A DNA stretch of 64,000 bases from Pedobacter heparinus DSM 2366 (GTDB taxonomy: Bacteria; Bacteroidota; Bacteroidia; Sphingobacteriales; Sphingobacteriaceae), in contig NC_013061.1 of the NCBI RefSeq assembly GCF_000023825.1, forward strand, positions 372,001 to 436,000, given 5' to 3'. Position numbers and translations under genes: made by a program. Positions 15,521 to 53,609 of the stretch are shown one piece after another. The notes beneath the pieces were generated by a model. That model was not told the DNA's origin. It saw nothing but the letters and a program-made list of their open reading frames with translations, and searched no databases. Position 1 is the first letter of the stretch. Each line of letters opens with the position of its first letter.

Positions 15521-17638
15521 ATGAAGAGTGTTTTTGTTGGCAGACATGTCCGTTTATCCGTTCTGTTTACTTTATTCGGTGCAACCTGTCTGGCACAGCG
15601 TTATCCAGGGCCGCTTTCTCCGGAGCAGTCGTTGAGCAAGTTAAAAATTGTGAACGGGTTTAAAGTGCAGTTATTTGCTGCCGAACCTTACGTGCTAGAT
15701 CCGGTAGCTTTGGAATTTGATGAACAGGGCAATGCCTATGTGGTAGAAATGCCCGATTATCCTTATGAGGTTGAGCCTGGAAAAGGAAAGGGCCGTATCC
15801 GTCTTTTAAAAGATACCAATGGCGATGGCCGTGTAGATAAATCGACAATATTTGCGGAAAATGTTACTGAAGCTACCAGTATTTTGCCCTGGAAAGGCGG
15901 ACTTATTGTTACTGCAGCCCCCAATATCCTTTACTTGAAAGATACTGACGGAGATGGCAAAGCTGACGTTAGGGAAGTGCTTTTTTCCGGCTTTTTTCAG
16001 GACAATTCAGAAGCACAGGTTACCAGTTTGCGCCTGGGCATAGACAATTGGATTTATGCAAACAACCGTGGACAAAGTGGGATGGTCACTTTCAGCAAAA
16101 CTCCCGGAGCCCCACCTGTTTCTGTACGCGGAGCAGATTTCCGGTTCCGGCTGGATAAAAATAAATTTGAGCTGGAAACCGGCCCGGGTCAGTTTGGCCA
16201 GGCCATTGACGATTGGGGACACCGGTTTTTTACAGAAAACTCTATTCACATCCAGCAATCCATCATTCCGTGGAGATATACGCACAGACACCCTTACCTG
16301 GGCCTTTCTAAATTTGTGGTAAACATTTCTGATCATCAGGAAATCATGTTCCAAAAAACTGAGGCACCATACTGGAGGGCCGAAAGGACCAGACGCCGTA
16401 ATCAGAACTTCAAGGAAGCAAACGTAAATAGAGTAGAGTACGCCGATGGCCACTTCACTGGTGCCTCTGGCGGAACCATTTATACAGGTGACGGTTTTCC
16501 AAAAGAATACCAGGGCAATTTTTTTGTAACAGATGTATCAGGTAACCTTGTACATAGAGATATACTTAGTGCCGTAGATAAAAGCCCGGTTATGGTGGCT
16601 AAACGTGGCGCGCAGGAAAAAGATGTGGAGTTTTTATATTCTACTGATACCTGGTTCCGTCCGATCACCTTTACAACAGGTCCTGATGGATATTTGTATT
16701 TACTGGATTATTACAGACAACATATTGAGACTCCGGTTTCAATAGATGACGACCTGAAAGCGGATATGGATTTCATGGCCGGAAGTGATAAAGGCAGGAT
16801 TTACCGCATTTTACCTGATAATGCAAATGTTAAAAATGTAAAAGTAGACCTTAAAAATACGAGCAGCGCCAAACTTGTTGCAGTACTTGCCCATCCCAAT
16901 GGCTGGTGGCGCAGCCAGGCTCACAGACTCCTGATCGAGCGTGGCGATAAATCTGTAGTTCCGGCTGTTAAAGCCTTGCTGAATACCAGTAGGGATGCAA
17001 GGGCCAGGCTTCATGCCATCTATGTGCTGGAAGGATTAGATGCATTAGATGCAGCGGTGGTAAAAAAAGGGTTGCAGGATGCTGAGCCCGGTGTACGCGA
17101 AAATGCCGTTATACTGGCCGAACGTTTTCCTGAATGCTTGCCGCAGGTGGTACAGAAAATCAATGATCCGGCAAACAGGGTAGCCTTTCAGGCAGCCCTA
17201 AGTTTAGGCGAGTTCAATGGTAAAGACGTTGTTCCGGCACTTGCAAAGGTAATTGCCCAATATGGACAGGATTCATGGTTCAGAATAGCTGTTTTAAGCT
17301 CTAATGCAGGTTCTTCGGCAGAATTGCTGACTGCATTGGTTCAGCAGCCGTCTTTCTCCCAGAAAGAAGAGGCATGGAAACTTGGTTTTCTTGAAGACTT
17401 ATCGGCAATTGTTGGTGCAAGAAATAACAAAGAGCAGGTGCATGCTTACCTCGAAACCTTATCACAGCCGGCCCTGGAAAAAGGAGCATGGCAGACAAGC
17501 CTGTTAAAGGGATTGAAAAAGGGCCTGGGTAAAGCTACTGGTGCAAATGCCGCATTAAAAGACGCTGTTGGCAATATAAAAACGGATTCTGGTGCTGATG
17601 TCAAAGCTTCAGTTTTGAAGTTGAAAACTCTGTATTAA
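15521..17638 (+). CDS. DUF7133 / PVC-type sugar-dehydrogenase-like propeller with HEAT repeats, secreted
   Basis: 705 residues with a signal peptide (CLAQ near 26). Residues about 35-430 match the 'putative membrane-bound dehydrogenase' domain (TIGR02604/DUF7133), a beta-propeller related to soluble glucose dehydrogenases. Signatures include AAEPYVLDPVALEFDEQGNA, calcium-type DTDGDGKAD, DFRFR and YYRQHIETP. Residues about 450-700 are HEAT-like repeats. Planctomycete relatives end in a haem-binding CxxCH domain. There is no CxxC here: the only cysteines are at the signal peptide and in PECLPQ. A HiPIP gene follows after 26 bases and may supply the electron acceptor. It is a close paralogue of the protein at 51031. 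Confidence 0.85.
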   Translation: MKSVFVGRHVRLSVLFTLFGATCLAQRYPGPLSPEQSLSKLKIVNGFKVQLFAAEPYVLDPVALEFDEQGNAYVVEMPDYPYEVEPGKGKGRIRLLKDTNGDGRVDKSTIFAENVTEATSILPWKGGLIVTAAPNILYLKDTDGDGKADVREVLFSGFFQDNSEAQVTSLRLGIDNWIYANNRGQSGMVTFSKTPGAPPVSVRGADFRFRLDKNKFELETGPGQFGQAIDDWGHRFFTENSIHIQQSIIPWRYTHRHPYLGLSKFVVNISDHQEIMFQKTEAPYWRAERTRRRNQNFKEANVNRVEYADGHFTGASGGTIYTGDGFPKEYQGNFFVTDVSGNLVHRDILSAVDKSPVMVAKRGAQEKDVEFLYSTDTWFRPITFTTGPDGYLYLLDYYRQHIETPVSIDDDLKADMDFMAGSDKGRIYRILPDNANVKNVKVDLKNTSSAKLVAVLAHPNGWWRSQAHRLLIERGDKSVVPAVKALLNTSRDARARLHAIYVLEGLDALDAAVVKKGLQDAEPGVRENAVILAERFPECLPQVVQKINDPANRVAFQAALSLGEFNGKDVVPALAKVIAQYGQDSWFRIAVLSSNAGSSAELLTALVQQPSFSQKEEAWKLGFLEDLSAIVGARNNKEQVHAYLETLSQPALEKGAWQTSLLKGLKKGLGKATGANAALKDAVGNIKTDSGADVKASVLKLKTLY

Positions 17639-17664
17639 TCGTTAAAAAATTAAACTATACCCAA

Positions 17665-18099
17665 ATGAAAGATCATAAATACTCACGCAGAAAATTTATA
17701 GGTAAATCCTTGTCCCTTGGTTCAATATGCTTTGGCGGGGCACTTTTACTTGGATCCAGTGCATTTAAGTCGGTAGCCATGGGCAGTAACACCAGGCCAG
17801 ACTTATCGGATGATCCTGCGTCACTGAAGGATAATTTAATTAAGCCAACTCCTCAGGATAGTACCAAACAAACCAAAATAGATCCGTGTGACGACATGAC
17901 CGGCGTAAGTCCGGCTGAACTTGCCAAACGGAAAAAACTGGCTTATGTAAACAAATCCCCAATCGAAGATAGCCATTGCAGCAATTGTGCACTCTATCTT
18001 CCTCCTGGAAAAGGCAAGTCCTGTGGCGGATGTGTACTGTTTAAAGGTCCTGTTCGCCCTACGGGTTATTGTGCTTACTGGGCTCCCATCAACAATTAG
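17665..18099 (+). CDS. High-potential iron-sulfur protein (HiPIP), Tat-exported
   Basis: 144 residues. The Tat signal SRRKFIGKS is followed by a hydrophobic stretch. The C-terminal domain has the HiPIP cysteine pattern (CSNC, then CGGC, then Cys in GYCAYWAP) and the VSPAELAKRKKLAYV segment shared with the second HiPIP at 53193. It would carry one electron on a 4Fe-4S cluster in the periplasm. Tat export fits, because the cluster is inserted before export. It lies directly after a haem-less dehydrogenase-like protein, which suggests they are redox partners. Confidence 0.9.
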   Translation: MKDHKYSRRKFIGKSLSLGSICFGGALLLGSSAFKSVAMGSNTRPDLSDDPASLKDNLIKPTPQDSTKQTKIDPCDDMTGVSPAELAKRKKLAYVNKSPIEDSHCSNCALYLPPGKGKSCGGCVLFKGPVRPTGYCAYWAPINN

Positions 18100-18116: not shown

Positions 18117-19346
18117 ATGAAGAAAGTACTTTTAATGTTGTTTTTAAGTAGCGGTTATTTTTCGGTTTCTGCGCAAAATAACCGGTCATCATCATATGCT
18201 GATAAATCCAACACCGTGGTTAAACATATTGGAGCAGCTAAGGCAACCGGTGGCGCATCGGCTGTAGTGGTTAATGAAGTAGCCCTTGCGCATACTTCAC
18301 AGTTTTTACCGGTAGATAAAACCGGGCAGCTGCTGGGCAAAAATGATCCTAAAAAACAGCTGGACCAGGTTTTTGAAAACATTGGCGGGGCCCTGAAAGC
18401 TGCGGGCAGCAGCCTGGACCAGATCGTAAAGATCAACATCTGTATTGCAGATGCCGGATTGATGCCAGAGGTTAAACGCTATCTTGGCAGCCGTTTCAGT
18501 GCCGGGAAAAAGCCGGCGGTTAGTTTTGTGTCGGGCGATCTGGTCCACCCCGATGCACTTATTGGTATGGACGTAGTTGCCGTAGCCCCATCTGCAGCAA
18601 CAAAGGTAAAATACCTGCAGCCTGCAAATCTATGGAGCGCCAAACAGCAGGCATCAGTTGCCATTTTACCGGCCGGAGGTGTGGTGTATGTATCGGGGCA
18701 AGCGGCACAAGGAAAAATTGCGGAAGCAACACGGGAAACACTGAAGCAGCTCGAGGCAACCTTACATCATTTAGGATTAAAAAAGGAAGACATTGTGCAG
18801 CTCAAATCATTCATTTGTCCAGCAACCGACATCCGTATTGTGGAACAGGAAATGGCGGATTTTTTTGCAGGCATGACCATTCCGCCAACTGTGTATGTCG
18901 ACTGGCTCAGCACTAACCCGGTGGTCGAAATAGAGCTCATTGCTGCGGCTCCCAAAAGTTTACAAAAGCCCGGAAAGCAGATTGATTTTATTACACCTCC
19001 GGGGATGACGGCATCACCGGTATATGCCAAAGTTACCCGGGTCAATTATGGCAAAAAAGTATACTTTTCCTCATTGTATGGCGAAAATGCAACCCATGCA
19101 AAAGCAGAAGTGGCAGAGATATATACCTCGCTGGAAAAAATAGCAAAGCAGTCGGGTACCGACCTCAACCACCTGGCCAAGGCTACCTATTATGTGGCCA
19201 ACGACAGTACCAGCAATGAATTAAACGAGATCAGGCCAAAGTATTATAAAGCCGATAGTCCTCCGGCAGCCTCTAAGGCTAAGGTAAAGGGGGTAGGTTT
19301 AAAAGATAAAGGGATTTGTATAGATATGATCGGCGTATGTTTTTAA
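18117..19346 (+). CDS. Exported triple-RidA-domain protein
   Basis: 409 residues from the ATG at 18117. The open frame reaches back to 18069, but 18117 gives a clean signal peptide (VLLMLFLSSGYFSVSAQ) and has AAGG before it. Three YjgF/RidA-like domains lie at about 25-140, 150-270 and 280-409. The conserved Arg of RidA imine deaminases (in the PTRSxV motif) is missing from all three: the equivalent places read PAVSFV, PPTVYV and PAASKA. Classical enamine/imine hydrolysis is therefore doubtful. It may be a binding protein or have a changed reaction. Exported RidA arrays are unusual, since RidA is normally cytosolic. Confidence 0.82.
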   Translation: MKKVLLMLFLSSGYFSVSAQNNRSSSYADKSNTVVKHIGAAKATGGASAVVVNEVALAHTSQFLPVDKTGQLLGKNDPKKQLDQVFENIGGALKAAGSSLDQIVKINICIADAGLMPEVKRYLGSRFSAGKKPAVSFVSGDLVHPDALIGMDVVAVAPSAATKVKYLQPANLWSAKQQASVAILPAGGVVYVSGQAAQGKIAEATRETLKQLEATLHHLGLKKEDIVQLKSFICPATDIRIVEQEMADFFAGMTIPPTVYVDWLSTNPVVEIELIAAAPKSLQKPGKQIDFITPPGMTASPVYAKVTRVNYGKKVYFSSLYGENATHAKAEVAEIYTSLEKIAKQSGTDLNHLAKATYYVANDSTSNELNEIRPKYYKADSPPAASKAKVKGVGLKDKGICIDMIGVCF

Positions 19347-20485
19347 TAAAGAGGCTTATACCGTTGCTGTTTTTCTTTCTGCAGGCCATGCAGCTCATGG
19401 CGCAGGGCAATGATGGCGTAACTGAAGTTACACTGAAAGTAATGCCGGGTTTACAGTTTGATGTGGTCAGGTTTACGGTAAAACCAGGCGCATTGGTAAA
19501 ACTCAGTTTTACCAATACAGACGATATGAGCCATAATTTATTGATCACAAAGCCCGGAAAAAGGCTGGCAGTGGTCAATGCAGCACTGCAGCTGGAGGAA
19601 AAAGGCCCGGCAATGAATTATATCCCGAAATCTTCCGATGTTTTGTGGTCTGTTCCGATACTGTCGCCTGAACAAACTAAATCCCTTAGCTTCAAAGCAC
19701 CGCTGCAGGCCGGGGCATATCCTTACGTATGTACCTATCCCGGGCATGGTTTTGTGATGTATGGCGTAATGTATGTAAATGCTGAGGGTAAGATGCCGGA
19801 GCTTAAAAATGATCCAAATATCCCTCCTGCAAGACAGGAGGACAAGCTTGCTGACGCCGGTAAACACGACATGCACCATGCACACCAGCAAGAAATGCCC
19901 AAAGCAGATCATCCTTATGCAACAGTACCACCCTATTTATACCGCATATTTATGGAGGATGCCAGCCCAGCGGCCATAGCGGTCAGCTTGCCCCAAAACC
20001 TGTCCTACTGCTGGGATGCCGGTGTATGCAGGTTACGGTACGCCTGGAAAGGTGGGTTTGTAGACAATACAGCCCTATGGAAGGGACATGCCGACGCTAC
20101 GGCAAAAATAATCGGGACAATCTTTTACCGCGATAAAACCACCTATCCTTTGAGGGTCGGAGATCCGGATGCCATCCCTGTAACTGAATACAAGGGCTAT
20201 CGGTTGGTTGAAAAATATCCGGAGTTTCATTATACACTCAATGGCATTGATGTATATGAGCTTATTTTACCAAAAGAAGACGGCAAAGGACTGGTACGGA
20301 AATTCAGGATCCCGGATGCAAACAAGGAGGTCTGGTTTGCCGCTAACCTACACGATGAGGCTGTCACATACGAAGCCTCGGCAGGTAACTGGGACCATGA
20401 AAAACTGCGGCTCAATCCGCAGCAGGCCCGCGAATTTACCCTCATCATGACCAGCTATCCTTTAGTTTACAGTAGAAAAAAGTAA
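19337..20485 (+). CDS. Azurin-like cupredoxin fused to a C-terminal domain
   Basis: 382 residues from the ATG at 19337, which overlaps the RidA stop by 10 bases; the frame also opens upstream at a TTG (19316). There is a signal peptide to about MAQ. The cupredoxin domain (about 20-140) has all four type-1 copper ligands: His in MSHNLL, and Cys, His and Met in CTYPGHGFVM, which mirrors azurin's C-x4-H-x3-M spacing. A His-rich linker (HDMHHAHQQEM) follows. The C-terminal domain (about 190-382, with YCWDAGVCRLRYAWKGGF) resembles one I recall from dehydrogenase/cytochrome fusions. It is likely a periplasmic electron carrier working with the neighbouring dehydrogenase-like proteins. Confidence 0.85.
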   Translation: MFLIKRLIPLLFFFLQAMQLMAQGNDGVTEVTLKVMPGLQFDVVRFTVKPGALVKLSFTNTDDMSHNLLITKPGKRLAVVNAALQLEEKGPAMNYIPKSSDVLWSVPILSPEQTKSLSFKAPLQAGAYPYVCTYPGHGFVMYGVMYVNAEGKMPELKNDPNIPPARQEDKLADAGKHDMHHAHQQEMPKADHPYATVPPYLYRIFMEDASPAAIAVSLPQNLSYCWDAGVCRLRYAWKGGFVDNTALWKGHADATAKIIGTIFYRDKTTYPLRVGDPDAIPVTEYKGYRLVEKYPEFHYTLNGIDVYELILPKEDGKGLVRKFRIPDANKEVWFAANLHDEAVTYEASAGNWDHEKLRLNPQQAREFTLIMTSYPLVYSRKK

Positions 20486-20489
20486 TCAG

Positions 20490-21998
20490 ATGAAATTAAA
20501 GACCCTAGCCTGCCTGGTAATTCTGTTTTTTATAAGCGCTGTTCCTGCTGACGATAAAAAAGCAAAGGAAGCGTATACCGTTGAGAACATTCCTATGCCT
20601 GAGGGGCTGACCAGCGAAACCGGGGGTATCGATTTTTTACCGGATGGCCGTTTGGTAGCCTGCTTTATCCGGGGGGAAGTCATGATCTACAATCCAAAAA
20701 GCAGGCAATGGACTTTATTTGCAGAGGGCCTGCACGAACCGTTGGGCATTATGGCGGTCAGCAATTCTGAGGTTTTGGTGATGCAGCGTCCGGAACTTAC
20801 GAGGATTAAAGATACAGATGGCGACGGCAAGGCCGATGTATATGAAAAAGTGACCGACGATTTTGGGCTGTCTGGCAATTACCACGAATTTAATTACGGA
20901 CCTGTAAAAGATAAAAAGGGCAATCTTTTTATTGCCTTGAATACGGCGTCCCCTGGTGGGGCAGTAAGGCCCGAGATCAGGGGTAAATTTAATCCCCTGG
21001 GCAGGGATTTGCAGACTGGGTTATATGAGATGTATGCTGTAGTACCTTATCGTGGCTGGGTAATGAAAGTTACACCCGATGGAAAACTGCATCCTTACGC
21101 TTCAGGAATGCGTTCGCCAAATGGCCTGGGCTTTGACCAGGAAGGAAACCTCTTTGTTACGGATAACCAGAGCGACTGGGTAGAAACCAGTACGCTGTAT
21201 CATGTAAAGGAAGGCAATTTTTATGGCCATCCTGCCAGCCTGGTCTGGAATAAAAACTGGCCGGCTAAAAACCCCTTCGCTTTACCCATTAACGAATTGG
21301 AACAGCTGCGTACAAAAGCAGCAGTTTTGTTTCCCCAGGGAATTATGGCCAATTCACCATCGCAACCACTCTGTGATGTTACAGCTGGTAAATTTGGTCC
21401 TTTTAAAGGGCAGTTGTTTATTGGCGAAATGAACAGGGACCGTATTGTTAGGGTTATGCTCGAAAAAGTAGGTGGCGAGCTTCAGGGGGCCTGCATCCCA
21501 TTTATAGATGGGCATGGCTTAAGAAAAGGGAACAACCGGCTCGCCTTTGCCCCTGATGGGAGTTTATGGGTAGGACAGATCGCTTTTGGCTGGAGTGGGG
21601 ATCTGGGTATACAGCGCATTGTTTACAATGGAACACCTCCTGCTGATGTTTATACCATGACCCTGACCAAAGATGGTTTTGACCTGAGCTTTACGCAACC
21701 CATGAATAAAACGGAGGCGATGAATCCTGATAATTACAAGTTCAGACACTATTATTATAAGTACCAGCGCAAAGCAAAAAACGAAGGCGCTGATAATTCC
21801 AGACAACTTGATGTTCAGGATGTAGCGATAACCGGTATAAAACTATCATCCGATCAAAAAAAGGTATCCATAAAGCTGTCGGCATTAAAGCCAGGCTATG
21901 TATATGAACTGAAACTGGGTAACCTGAGCAGTAAAGAAGGTACACCTCTGGCCAATAAACTCATCTGTTATACACTCAATAAACTCCTTAACAATTGA
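20490..21998 (+). CDS. Secreted sugar-dehydrogenase-like beta-propeller (DUF7133 type, short form)
   Basis: 502 residues with a signal peptide (to about VPADD). The propeller has motifs shared with its larger neighbour, including MPEGLTSETGGIDFLPDGRL, KDTDGDGKADV, GNYHEFNYGP, MRSPNGLGF and TDNQSDWVETS. A C-terminal beta-sandwich-like stretch (about 385-502) replaces HEAT repeats. It has no CxxCH haem motif. It lies 4 bases after the cupredoxin gene. It may oxidise a sugar or lactone, or only bind it; the catalytic residues are not clear to me. The last bases overlap the TTG start of the next gene. Confidence 0.82.
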   Translation: MKLKTLACLVILFFISAVPADDKKAKEAYTVENIPMPEGLTSETGGIDFLPDGRLVACFIRGEVMIYNPKSRQWTLFAEGLHEPLGIMAVSNSEVLVMQRPELTRIKDTDGDGKADVYEKVTDDFGLSGNYHEFNYGPVKDKKGNLFIALNTASPGGAVRPEIRGKFNPLGRDLQTGLYEMYAVVPYRGWVMKVTPDGKLHPYASGMRSPNGLGFDQEGNLFVTDNQSDWVETSTLYHVKEGNFYGHPASLVWNKNWPAKNPFALPINELEQLRTKAAVLFPQGIMANSPSQPLCDVTAGKFGPFKGQLFIGEMNRDRIVRVMLEKVGGELQGACIPFIDGHGLRKGNNRLAFAPDGSLWVGQIAFGWSGDLGIQRIVYNGTPPADVYTMTLTKDGFDLSFTQPMNKTEAMNPDNYKFRHYYYKYQRKAKNEGADNSRQLDVQDVAITGIKLSSDQKKVSIKLSALKPGYVYELKLGNLSSKEGTPLANKLICYTLNKLLNN

Positions 21999-51030: not shown

Positions 51031-53169
51031 ATGAAAGCTCTGAACCTTAAAAGAAACCTGATATGGATTACTATGGTGGCAGTTGTATTTGCCTCCTGTT
51101 CAAAAAAGAAAAAGTATGAAGAGTCCCGAACGGCCGAGGAATCTATCAGTACTTTTGATATGCTGAATGGTTTTAAAGCCGAAGTATATGCTACCGAACC
51201 GAATGTCACCGATCCTGTTGAGCTCACGTTTGATGAGGAGGGCAATGCTTATGTCATTGAGATGGGTGATTATCCGTATAAGGCGGTAAAAGGACAGGGT
51301 AAGGGCCAGATCCGTAAGCTGATCGATAAGGACCACGATGGAAAAATAGATACCTCTGTTATTTTTGCCAGCAAACTTGAAAGTGGCACCAGTATATTGC
51401 CATGGGAAGGCGGCTTGCTCGTCACCGCTGCACCCAATATTTTCTTCATGAAAGATACCACTGGCGACGGTAAGGCTGACATTAAAGAAGTGCTGTTTAC
51501 CGGCTTCTTTGAAGACAATTCTGAAGCTCAGATTACGAGTTTGAGGTATGGTATCGACAACTGGATCTATGCCAATAATGGCGGGATGGCCGGTGAAATT
51601 ACTTTTAGCCGTAAACCAAATGCCCCTGCCTTACAGATCAAAGGGGGCGACTTCCGGTTCCGACTGGATAAAGGCCTGTTTGAAGTAGAGTCTGGTGCCG
51701 GTCAGTATGGCTTGGATATGGACGATCTTGGACACCGGTTTTATACCAATAATTCCAGGCACATTTCCAATTCGCCCATTGCCGGCAGGTACCTGAAACG
51801 CCACGATCATATGAACTTTAAGTCTGTAGTGAACATTTATGCTGCTGAACCGATCATGTACCAGGCTACCCCTGCACCATGGTGGCGTGCAGAACGTACA
51901 AAAGCACGCAATGCGAATTTTGAAAAAGAAAAACTGGATAGAAAGGAATATGCTGAAGGACGTTTTACTGCAGCTTCGGGCGGAACGATTTATGCCGGCG
52001 ATGCCTATCCGAAAGAATTTTATGGCAGTAGTTTTATTGGCGATGTAGCCGGAAGCCTGGTGCACCGCGATATTATTGAAATTGGCAACGACGGGCCTTT
52101 TTTTAATGCAAAACGCAGCGCAAAAGAAGAGAAACGTGAATTCATAGCTTCAACAGATCCATGGTTCAGGCCATGTAACTTTACCCTGGGCTATGATGGT
52201 AACCTGTATATGGTGGATATGTACCGTCAGCACATCGAAACACCAGTATCTATTCCTGATTCCCTGAAAATGGATATGGACTTTATGCGTGGCAATAATT
52301 TTGGCCGCATTTACCGTATTGTTTCTACTGAAGCAAAAGCACAGAAATCATTGCCACCGCACATGCGGAACCAATTTGGTCAGGAACTGGTGGCTTACCT
52401 GGGTCATCCAAACCGCTGGTGGCGTTTAAATGCCCAGCGCATCATCATTGAGCGTAAAGACAAATCGGCTATCCCGGCTTTGGTCAAAATGTTCAACGAG
52501 GATAAAAACCCGATCAGCAGGCTGCACGCCCTGTATACTTTAGAAGGCCTGGATGCCCTGAATGCCGAGCTGGTAGGTAAAGCATTAACCGATGCCAATG
52601 CAGGTTTAAGAGAGCATGGCGCCATCCTTTCAGAGCGCTTCCCGGAACTGGCGGGTCAGCTGGTAAAAACCATTGCTGATCCTGTAGGACTGGTTTCTTT
52701 ACAGGCAACATTAAGCGCCGGACAGCTGAAGGCTGGACAGGTAGTACCTGCTTTTGCCAGTCTCATAGAAAAGAAATATAAAGACATGTGGTTCAGCAAT
52801 GCCGTGTTGAGCTCAAATCCCGGTTCATCATTTGAACTGGTAGATCAGCTGGCCAAAAATGGGGCTTTCTTTACTGCTCCCGATTCTGCGAAACTGGCTT
52901 TTGTAAAAAATATTTCGACCATTATCGGCTCCCGGAAATCGGGTGCAGAGGTATCAAAACTGCTTGCTTTCTTCTCTTCGCCTGCTGTAAAAACAGATCA
53001 GAAATGGGTGCAGGAAGGTTTGAATGGCCTGGCTACCGGATTTAAAAAATCTAAAAACAAGGAAGGTAATGCAGCCATTGCCGCTACGCTTAAAAAGCTG
53101 GAAGGCAGTGCGGTTGCAGAAAATAAAAAGGCATATCAGGATGCTGCCGAAGCTTTAAAAGGAAGTTGA
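51031..53169 (+). CDS. DUF7133 / PVC-type sugar-dehydrogenase-like lipoprotein with HEAT repeats
   Basis: 712 residues with lipobox VFASC. The propeller (about 50-440) and C-terminal HEAT-like repeats match the protein at 15521 along their whole length: AEVYATEPNVTDPVELTFDE, DTTGDGKADIKE, GGDFRFRLDK, MYRQHIETPVSIPDSLK. As there, no CxxCH haem motif exists (only the lipobox Cys and one in FRPCNF). A HiPIP gene follows at once. This copy is a lipoprotein while the other is soluble, so the same redox module may work at a membrane and in the periplasm. Confidence 0.87.
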   Translation: MKALNLKRNLIWITMVAVVFASCSKKKKYEESRTAEESISTFDMLNGFKAEVYATEPNVTDPVELTFDEEGNAYVIEMGDYPYKAVKGQGKGQIRKLIDKDHDGKIDTSVIFASKLESGTSILPWEGGLLVTAAPNIFFMKDTTGDGKADIKEVLFTGFFEDNSEAQITSLRYGIDNWIYANNGGMAGEITFSRKPNAPALQIKGGDFRFRLDKGLFEVESGAGQYGLDMDDLGHRFYTNNSRHISNSPIAGRYLKRHDHMNFKSVVNIYAAEPIMYQATPAPWWRAERTKARNANFEKEKLDRKEYAEGRFTAASGGTIYAGDAYPKEFYGSSFIGDVAGSLVHRDIIEIGNDGPFFNAKRSAKEEKREFIASTDPWFRPCNFTLGYDGNLYMVDMYRQHIETPVSIPDSLKMDMDFMRGNNFGRIYRIVSTEAKAQKSLPPHMRNQFGQELVAYLGHPNRWWRLNAQRIIIERKDKSAIPALVKMFNEDKNPISRLHALYTLEGLDALNAELVGKALTDANAGLREHGAILSERFPELAGQLVKTIADPVGLVSLQATLSAGQLKAGQVVPAFASLIEKKYKDMWFSNAVLSSNPGSSFELVDQLAKNGAFFTAPDSAKLAFVKNISTIIGSRKSGAEVSKLLAFFSSPAVKTDQKWVQEGLNGLATGFKKSKNKEGNAAIAATLKKLEGSAVAENKKAYQDAAEALKGS

Positions 53170-53192
53170 TTTCAGACCTAAAACAGATACAG

Positions 53193-53609
53193 ATGAAGAT
53201 TCAAAATAACTCACGCAGGGCTTTCCTGCAAAAATTTCTTTCGGCCGGACTGGTGGTAGTTGCCGGTGGTGCAGTTTTAAGCAGTTGTAATGGTGACAGC
53301 CCTAAAGAAAGCGGAACAGTAACCGGGGAAACCCCTAAGGCAGGGGCGGATACCGCAAAATCAGCTTCGGCAGGGAGCGGTGCCGACGATTTTAAATGTG
53401 GTGATTATTCTAATGTAAGTCCGGAAGAGCTGGCCAAACGTAAGAAACTCGGCTATGTAGAGAAATCCCCTGATCCGGAAAGAGAATGCCAAAAATGTAA
53501 TCTTTTTATTCCAAAAGGTGCGGAAAAAACCTGCGGAGGATGCATTCTTTTCAAAGGACCTGTTAACAAGGAAGGTTCCTGCACCTATTGGGCTGAACAG
53601 GTTTCCTAA
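53193..53609 (+). CDS. High-potential iron-sulfur protein (HiPIP), Tat-exported lipoprotein
   Basis: 138 residues from the ATG at 53193; the frame extends to a TTG at 53166 that overlaps the previous stop. It has a Tat motif (SRRAFLQKF) together with a lipobox (LSSC), so it is a Tat lipoprotein. The HiPIP domain has CQKC, CGGC and the last Cys in GSCTYWAE, plus VSPEELAKRKKLGYVEKSP as in the HiPIP at 17665. A membrane-anchored electron carrier pairs logically with the lipoprotein dehydrogenase encoded just upstream. Confidence 0.9.
   Translation: MKIQNNSRRAFLQKFLSAGLVVVAGGAVLSSCNGDSPKESGTVTGETPKAGADTAKSASAGSGADDFKCGDYSNVSPEELAKRKKLGYVEKSPDPERECQKCNLFIPKGAEKTCGGCILFKGPVNKEGSCTYWAEQVS

Follow-up and report, generated by a model that had tools for sequence, protein, structure and literature searches.

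What purpose does a high-potential iron-sulfur protein (HiPIP) serve when its gene directly follows that of a propeller protein lacking haem? This question is raised by a 64,000-nucleotide stretch of the Pedobacter heparinus DSM 2366 genome (NC_013061.1, positions 372,001 to 436,000; hereafter the window, from whose first letter its features are numbered), which contains two such gene pairs, A and B. One explanation, which the comparison of related loci makes probable, is that the propeller acts as the catalytic subunit in an exported oxidoreductase, with the adjoining HiPIP as its dedicated one-electron acceptor. That the HiPIP would stand in for a carrier fused to the propeller in related proteins is well supported by the same comparison, as a single event.

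In pair A, a forward-strand open reading frame (ORF) for a protein of 705 residues (15521-17638) is followed after 26 bases by a second ORF on the same strand for a protein of 144 residues (17665-18099). The first protein, propeller A, has a DUF7133 domain (PF23500, 391 bits, residues 33-432) and HEAT repeats in Pfam, an N-terminus that by eye resembles a signal peptide, and a predicted structure whose matches in the PDB are considered below. Propeller B of pair B (51031-53169, forward strand, 712 residues, PF23500 at 372 bits) is a paralogue that is 50% identical to propeller A in alignment and begins, as judged by eye, with a lipoprotein-signal-like sequence. Both propellers exceed the TIGR02604 cut-off of 122.2 bits (271.5 bits for A and 243.7 bits for B), which indicates that the N-terminal propeller domain of that family is present, and neither contains a CxxCH motif by regular-expression search or a cytochrome domain in Pfam. 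HiPIP A has a twin-arginine leader, with the motif SRRKF at the N-terminus, as well as six Cys residues, and it scores 25.9 bits against PF01355, for which the cut-off is 22 bits. HiPIP B scores slightly below that cut-off (19.7 bits); it is 41% identical to HiPIP A, keeps all six Cys residues, and carries a twin-arginine leader and, by eye, a lipobox-like LSSC. Reading of the bases places its likely start at the ATG at 53193 (53193-53609, forward strand), the longer ORF beginning at a TTG at 53166. A preliminary description of the window had claimed that a haem-less propeller is followed 26 bases on by a HiPIP of the twin-arginine translocation (Tat) type and that a second such pair lies at 51031-53609, and both claims were borne out by the ORFs and the features given here.

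The best match of HiPIP A in the PDB is 3h31 (E 8.3e-18), which we take to be the HiPIP of Rhodothermus marinus. In alignments with 3h31 and other HiPIPs of solved structure, Cys105, Cys108, Cys123, and Cys136 of HiPIP A fall on the four ligands of the cluster, and the extra pair, Cys75 and Cys120, is likewise found in 3h31, where it presumably forms a disulfide.

A scan of genomes with both window propellers confirmed 227 relatives, and the best 80 of these were analyzed: 56 loci from Bacteroidota, one of which (L083) was placed there by its position in the tree, and 24 others (23 from Acidobacteriota and one from Aminicenantes). Searched with a hidden Markov model (HMM), 53 of the 56 Bacteroidota loci have a HiPIP gene directly downstream of the propeller on the same strand, the two open frames being separated by anything from an overlap of 126 bases to a spacing of 251 bases, and none of the 56 propellers has a CxxCH motif or a match to a cupredoxin profile. 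Among the 24 relatives from outside the Bacteroidota, a C-terminal CxxCH is present in 22 and the remaining two are truncated by the end of a contig; a HiPIP adjoins none of them. The preliminary description had suggested comparing adjacency with CxxCH fusion and had held that its reading would fail if the pairing were peculiar to this locus; what was found is a pairing common to nearly all of the Bacteroidota relatives, with no fusion among them. Of 46 paired HiPIPs, 45 matched the five-Cys core CxxC...CxxC...C, the exception (L085) having a CNTC that only the narrower regular expression missed. A sixth, upstream Cys is present in 44 of the 45 matching proteins, and 45 of the 46 show a twin-arginine pattern between residues 1 and 70 of the open frame.

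What do other members of the DUF7133 family use as a carrier? The family occurs in Acidobacteriota, in the Planctomycetes-Verrucomicrobia-Chlamydiae (PVC) group according to NCBI family name, and in 43 of 395 sampled Bacteroidota genomes that were searched with PF23500 (E <= 1e-60). Up to four candidates were scored per genome, so that the resulting counts are lower bounds. This search gave at least 111 matches, of which three are those of P. heparinus itself, and the other 108 were classified, with CxxCH scored by pattern and cupredoxins by a profile built from proteins of the genus Pedobacter and the window's own. CxxCH was found in 66, in every case C-terminal to the propeller, a fused cupredoxin in 32, a cupredoxin encoded by the next gene in three, and a HiPIP encoded by the next gene in two; five were unassigned. 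A cytochrome domain was confirmed in Pfam for all four CxxCH proteins that were tried (L003, L015, L021, and L097), each of them outside the 108. Because 103 of the 108 proteins have an electron carrier, the family nearly always comes with one, and none of the 108 combines two kinds.

The preliminary description had treated haem fusion as the alternative to a separate HiPIP. Relatives fused to a CxxCH domain do exist, but a two-way split between haem and HiPIP had to be rejected, as CxxCH-less proteins of the genus Pedobacter (984 and 989 residues) end in a plastocyanin/azurin domain in Pfam; a cupredoxin, fused or neighboring, is thus a third solution. According to Pfam, each of these two (L008 and L012) unites ThuA and DUF7133 with the plastocyanin/azurin domain in a single chain, and four similar proteins align with them. 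The claim that pairing excludes a fused carrier held throughout, in that no HiPIP-adjoining protein examined had CxxCH or a fused cupredoxin. As for the five unassigned proteins, three were rejected as true exceptions: L189 (3199-6228) is a DUF7133-HEAT-cytochrome c gene with one in-frame stop before a CATCH haem domain (decay, error, or read-through), L182 is followed at a distance of about 1.2 kb by an ORF that by eye resembles a cupredoxin, and the frame of L207 is broken. The two that stay, L265 and L266, are mutually related full-length DUF7133 proteins, and the next gene appears by eye to encode a phytanoyl-CoA dioxygenase-like protein.

The P. heparinus genome, a single contig of 5,167,383 bases, holds three full-length DUF7133 genes and a weaker one (20490-21998 in the window). 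Its two convincing HiPIPs are each encoded directly downstream of a full-length DUF7133 gene. The pairing therefore goes beyond chance, because both of these HiPIPs adjoin two of its three full-length DUF7133 genes. The third full-length propeller has CQTCH at its C-terminus and a Pfam cytochrome c domain. A third HiPIP match in the genome (E 0.077) spans three stop codons and was rejected.

The history of the pairing was followed in two trees. The propeller tree, a quick one without bootstrap in which the program flagged long branches, was built from 111 chosen rows: the two window propellers, 45 of the 56 Bacteroidota relatives (11 near-copies or similar loci were dropped), 13 of the 24 other loci, 42 of the 108 proteins from the wider sample (drawn from all classes, with about one third of the CxxCH and cupredoxin proteins), and nine from the genus Pedobacter. 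In this tree, 46 HiPIP-paired propellers and three carrier-less ones form one group (99 in the Shimodaira-Hasegawa-like approximate likelihood ratio test, SH-aLRT). This HiPIP clade is placed next to haem-fused Acidobacteriota proteins, the joint group having an SH-aLRT of 100, and the cupredoxin proteins form a separate group (SH-aLRT 99). The HiPIP tree (75 rows and 71 columns; 49 rows paired, 47 of them distinct with two genes entered twice, and 26 unpaired) places the paired HiPIPs apart from the unpaired ones with support of 100/96. HiPIP A and propeller A have five of their six nearest relatives in common. Propeller and HiPIP distances correlate with a Mantel r of 0.76, a value that is confounded by species descent and was not taken as proof. 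The trees fit a single origin within haem-fused relatives, with a HiPIP branch of its own, and the simplest history would be a single exchange in which an adjoining HiPIP took the place of a fused cytochrome, followed by joint inheritance and no more than three later losses of the HiPIP. The preliminary description had set the window propellers against haem-fused planctomycete relatives. Relatives with a C-terminal CxxCH were indeed found, but planctomycetes as the nearest of them were rejected, the closest found in the tree being from Acidobacteriota, with planctomycetes outside the survey.

We propose that an ancestor had a C-terminal cytochrome c and that one lineage of Bacteroidota may have lost this domain together with part of the HEAT region. 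A Rhodothermus-type HiPIP gene would have settled immediately downstream, and the two genes would have been inherited jointly thereafter. The HiPIP would be exported by Tat and the propeller by the Sec or lipoprotein route, and the propeller would oxidize a small molecule in the periplasm and pass single electrons to the HiPIP. The R. marinus HiPIP feeds an oxidase, and, of a chain from alternative complex III to a haem-copper oxidase, the P. heparinus genome has an NrfD-type gene (PF03916, 340560-341531 in the genome) and COX1 genes (PF00115) at 345613-347049 and 2883373-2884662, the first of these about 4 kb from the NrfD gene; with such genes present, an oxidase could take electrons from the HiPIP. 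Electrons might then run from the propeller through the HiPIP to a haem-copper oxidase.

Several observations weigh against this proposal. Several near-copies are present among the 56 loci (e.g., L049-L052), and the counts are of loci rather than events, the loci not being independent. The mutual exclusion of carriers fits one event kept by descent, and so one replacement rather than many; the claim that a separate HiPIP replaces the fused cytochrome is accordingly upheld by the comparison as one such event, not as a recurrent one. Three propellers of the clade (L058, L075, and L084) adjoin neither carrier; the genomes of L058 and L075 have one HiPIP match each, in another pair, and that of L084 has no detectable HiPIP. 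Outside the clade, no carrier was found for L265 and L266. Only one of six nearest relatives is common to HiPIP B and propeller B, and the haem-fused Acidobacteriota loci have almost no neighbor genes in common with the HiPIP-clade loci, so that a shared pathway at the Acidobacteriota loci is unsupported. Moreover, no redox cofactor site was identified in the propeller, and its top match in Foldseek is not a dehydrogenase.

The last two points bear on what the propeller does. In a Foldseek search with the confident AlphaFold2 model of propeller A (predicted local distance difference test score, pLDDT, 92.4), the luciferin-regenerating enzyme came first, followed by pyranose and glucose dehydrogenases. 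When the matches of the predicted model were realigned, 3a9g (Z 25.9), 2ism (24.3), 7cgz (24.0), and Escherichia coli Asd (2g8s, 23.4) led, and the match to 3a9g (285 residues, root-mean-square deviation 3.3) suggests a six-bladed propeller of the type found in sugar dehydrogenases that depend on pyrroloquinoline quinone (PQQ). Searched by sequence, the propeller matched HEAT-type and similar repeats and two teneurin chains (E 0.67 and 0.81) in the PDB and no dehydrogenase. An AlphaFold2 model of the haem-fused relative L097 had a pLDDT of 84.8.

Since the best realigned matches include the PQQ sugar dehydrogenases 3a9g, 2ism, 7cgz, and 2g8s, the propeller might be an enzyme of the soluble glucose dehydrogenase (sGDH) or Asd kind that takes PQQ from outside, as some PQQ users do, and hands its electrons to the HiPIP. 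Most other DUF7133 rows would suit such an enzyme, with His in all 19 cupredoxin-clade rows at the position of what we take to be the catalytic His and, in the 30 rows beyond, at 165 in 27 and at 164 in 11. In propeller A that position corresponds to E164, according to a profile alignment with about 20% identity; a Glu occupies it in 47 of 49 HiPIP-clade rows and in 13 of 13 Acidobacteriota rows. The presumed PQQ-binding Arg of the motif falls on column 223, which holds Gly or Ala in all 49 HiPIP-clade rows, or on column 222, which is Arg in at least two of the 49. Among 28 genomes (that of P. heparinus and 27 of the clade), none had PqqE above the cut-off, nor did P. heparinus have PqqC; none of the control genomes passed a cut-off either, so that the negative is no proof of absence. 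Hedgehog-interacting protein (Z 24.0) and diisopropyl fluorophosphatase (DFPase; about 22) also score nearly as high as the dehydrogenases. PQQ use in the HiPIP clade is doubtful on these grounds, an enzyme of the sGDH or Asd kind is unlikely, and the sugar oxidation put forward in the preliminary description is not supported.

The same lack of conserved PQQ residues, the luciferin-regenerating enzyme at the head of the Foldseek matches, and DFPase-type and lactonase propellers at Z 21-22 would suit a non-redox hydrolase, lyase, or binding protein, with the redox partners belonging to some other process. Against such a role, which we regard as quite improbable, stands the presence of electron carriers, fused or neighboring and of three unrelated kinds, in nearly all sampled DUF7133 proteins. 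Other residues are conserved: W285, R286, R289, and R293 are invariant in the 49 HiPIP-clade and the 13 Acidobacteriota rows, in a clade-specific WRxxRxxxR helix at 284-299, and, of the 49 rows outside these two groups, 45 have gaps at columns 285, 286, and 289. Together with E55 and R208, which are family-wide, this helix is inferred to line the active site. Because the haem-fused Acidobacteriota rows also have the Glu and the WRxxR residues, the change in the active site seems to have preceded that of the carrier. It is conceivable, and we put it forward tentatively, that these proteins represent a novel class of exported oxidoreductase that has the PQQ-dehydrogenase fold without PQQ chemistry and in which the electron outlet has been swapped among cytochrome c, cupredoxin, and HiPIP.

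Might the HiPIP instead carry electrons for respiration at large and, although its gene lies in the operon, not be the partner of the propeller? When searched for HiPIPs, 40 of the 395 Bacteroidota genomes had matches; in four of the 40 (E about 1e-4), the match is mainly in the leader and probably not a HiPIP. Of 30 loci inspected, 26 (L121-L146) have a Rhodothermus-type HiPIP without a propeller in flanks that measure about 1.5 kb at most, and four (that of P. heparinus, G308, G221, and G230) have it beside a propeller. The pair thus occurs in at least four of the 395 genomes, from four families, and is uncommon yet spread among Bacteroidota. The R. marinus HiPIP is reduced by alternative complex III (PMC5928083; also PMC8552683). 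Several features argue for a dedicated partner rather than such a general carrier: the paired HiPIPs branch apart from the unpaired ones of the R. marinus type, the P. heparinus genome has one HiPIP per pair and no free one, and the HiPIP is kept at 53 of 56 loci by HMM (47 by blastp clustering), compared with 24, by the same clustering, for the next commonest neighbors. A general carrier is, in our judgment, very unlikely, and the HiPIP as acceptor for the adjoining propeller remains the explanation that we prefer.

The components of this proposed system are already known, and what would be new is the pairing. The PVC-type haem-binding CxxCH proteins (TIGR02604; DUF7133, HEAT, and cytochrome c) have the same propeller and HEAT scaffold as the window propellers, which differ in having neither CxxCH nor a cytochrome domain and in having their carrier encoded by a separate gene. 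One study (PMC5615132), on genomes of freshwater Verrucomicrobia, reports that the functions of planctomycete-specific cytochrome c proteins, which may include DUF7133 proteins, are not known, and it suggests that they take part in carbohydrate metabolism. HiPIP A has the four ligand Cys residues and the two extra ones of the R. marinus HiPIP, which is a respiratory carrier. With the PQQ sugar dehydrogenases (3a9g, 2ism, 2g8s, sGDH, and the AA12 pyranose dehydrogenase), the predicted model shares the propeller fold, whereas the clade lacks the aligned catalytic His and motif Arg and has a HEAT domain and a HiPIP partner. AA12 joins a propeller domain of this kind to a cytochrome domain, as stated in PMC6881789. 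TsdA of Allochromatium vinosum is likewise a dehydrogenase that has a HiPIP as its natural partner (PMC6879331), but it is a dihaem enzyme of another family with another substrate. No description of the DUF7133-HiPIP pairing was found in the open-access library searched, which fits the earlier statement that no such system has been described; nor did that library yield anything under the family names, or a tested function for DUF7133 proteins. The DUF7133 family gains a testable redox role from the pairing, and one scaffold appears to be served by three unrelated electron carriers. Since the two proteins are naturally separate, they would allow measurements of cofactor, substrate, and electron transfer that are harder in the fused forms.

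The neighboring genes offer weak hints at a substrate. The next gene after HiPIP A (18117-19346, forward strand) encodes a RidA (L-PSP) protein with three such stretches and a signal-peptide-like start, and homologues are present at nine of the 56 related loci. RidA acts on imines, and its position hints at amine oxidation. Upstream of pair B, genes on the forward strand between 43059 and 49686 encode, in order, a DegT-type, a ceramidase-like, a second DegT-type, and a second ceramidase-like protein and an amidohydrolase, with homologues at 12, 17, 12, 11, and 25 of the 56 loci, respectively; by eye, Tat-like leaders are present on the amidohydrolase and on each of the DegT proteins. As a first guess, held with low confidence, RidA, DegT, and the amidohydrolase may point to an amino sugar or aminocyclitol as the substrate.

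Two further observations concern gene content around these pairs. At the place of the HiPIP in L058 (8127-8924) is a protein that by eye resembles the DUF1080 (3-keto-glycoside) family, possibly another substrate hint; DUF1080 proteins are linked to 3-ketoglycosides in the passages available from PMC9007349, in which neither "propeller" nor "PQQ" appears. In the window, the segment 43059-48672 contains two DegT-type pyridoxal phosphate-dependent aminotransferases that are apparently exported, judging from their leaders by eye, and that alternate with the two ceramidase-like proteins.

Downstream of the RidA gene, the forward-strand gene at 19337-20485 encodes a cupredoxin joined to a DUF6797-like piece (Pfam), and the next gene (20490-21998, forward strand) is the weaker DUF7133 gene, encoding a short, divergent propeller-like protein (46 bits in Pfam) without CxxCH, for which the cupredoxin is a candidate copper partner. 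Homologues of the cupredoxin protein were found by blastp at 16 of 35 cupredoxin-class loci, one of 66 cytochrome-class loci, and none of the 56 HiPIP-clade loci. It is possible that 19337-21998 encodes another split enzyme of this operon, in which copper would take the place of iron-sulfur.

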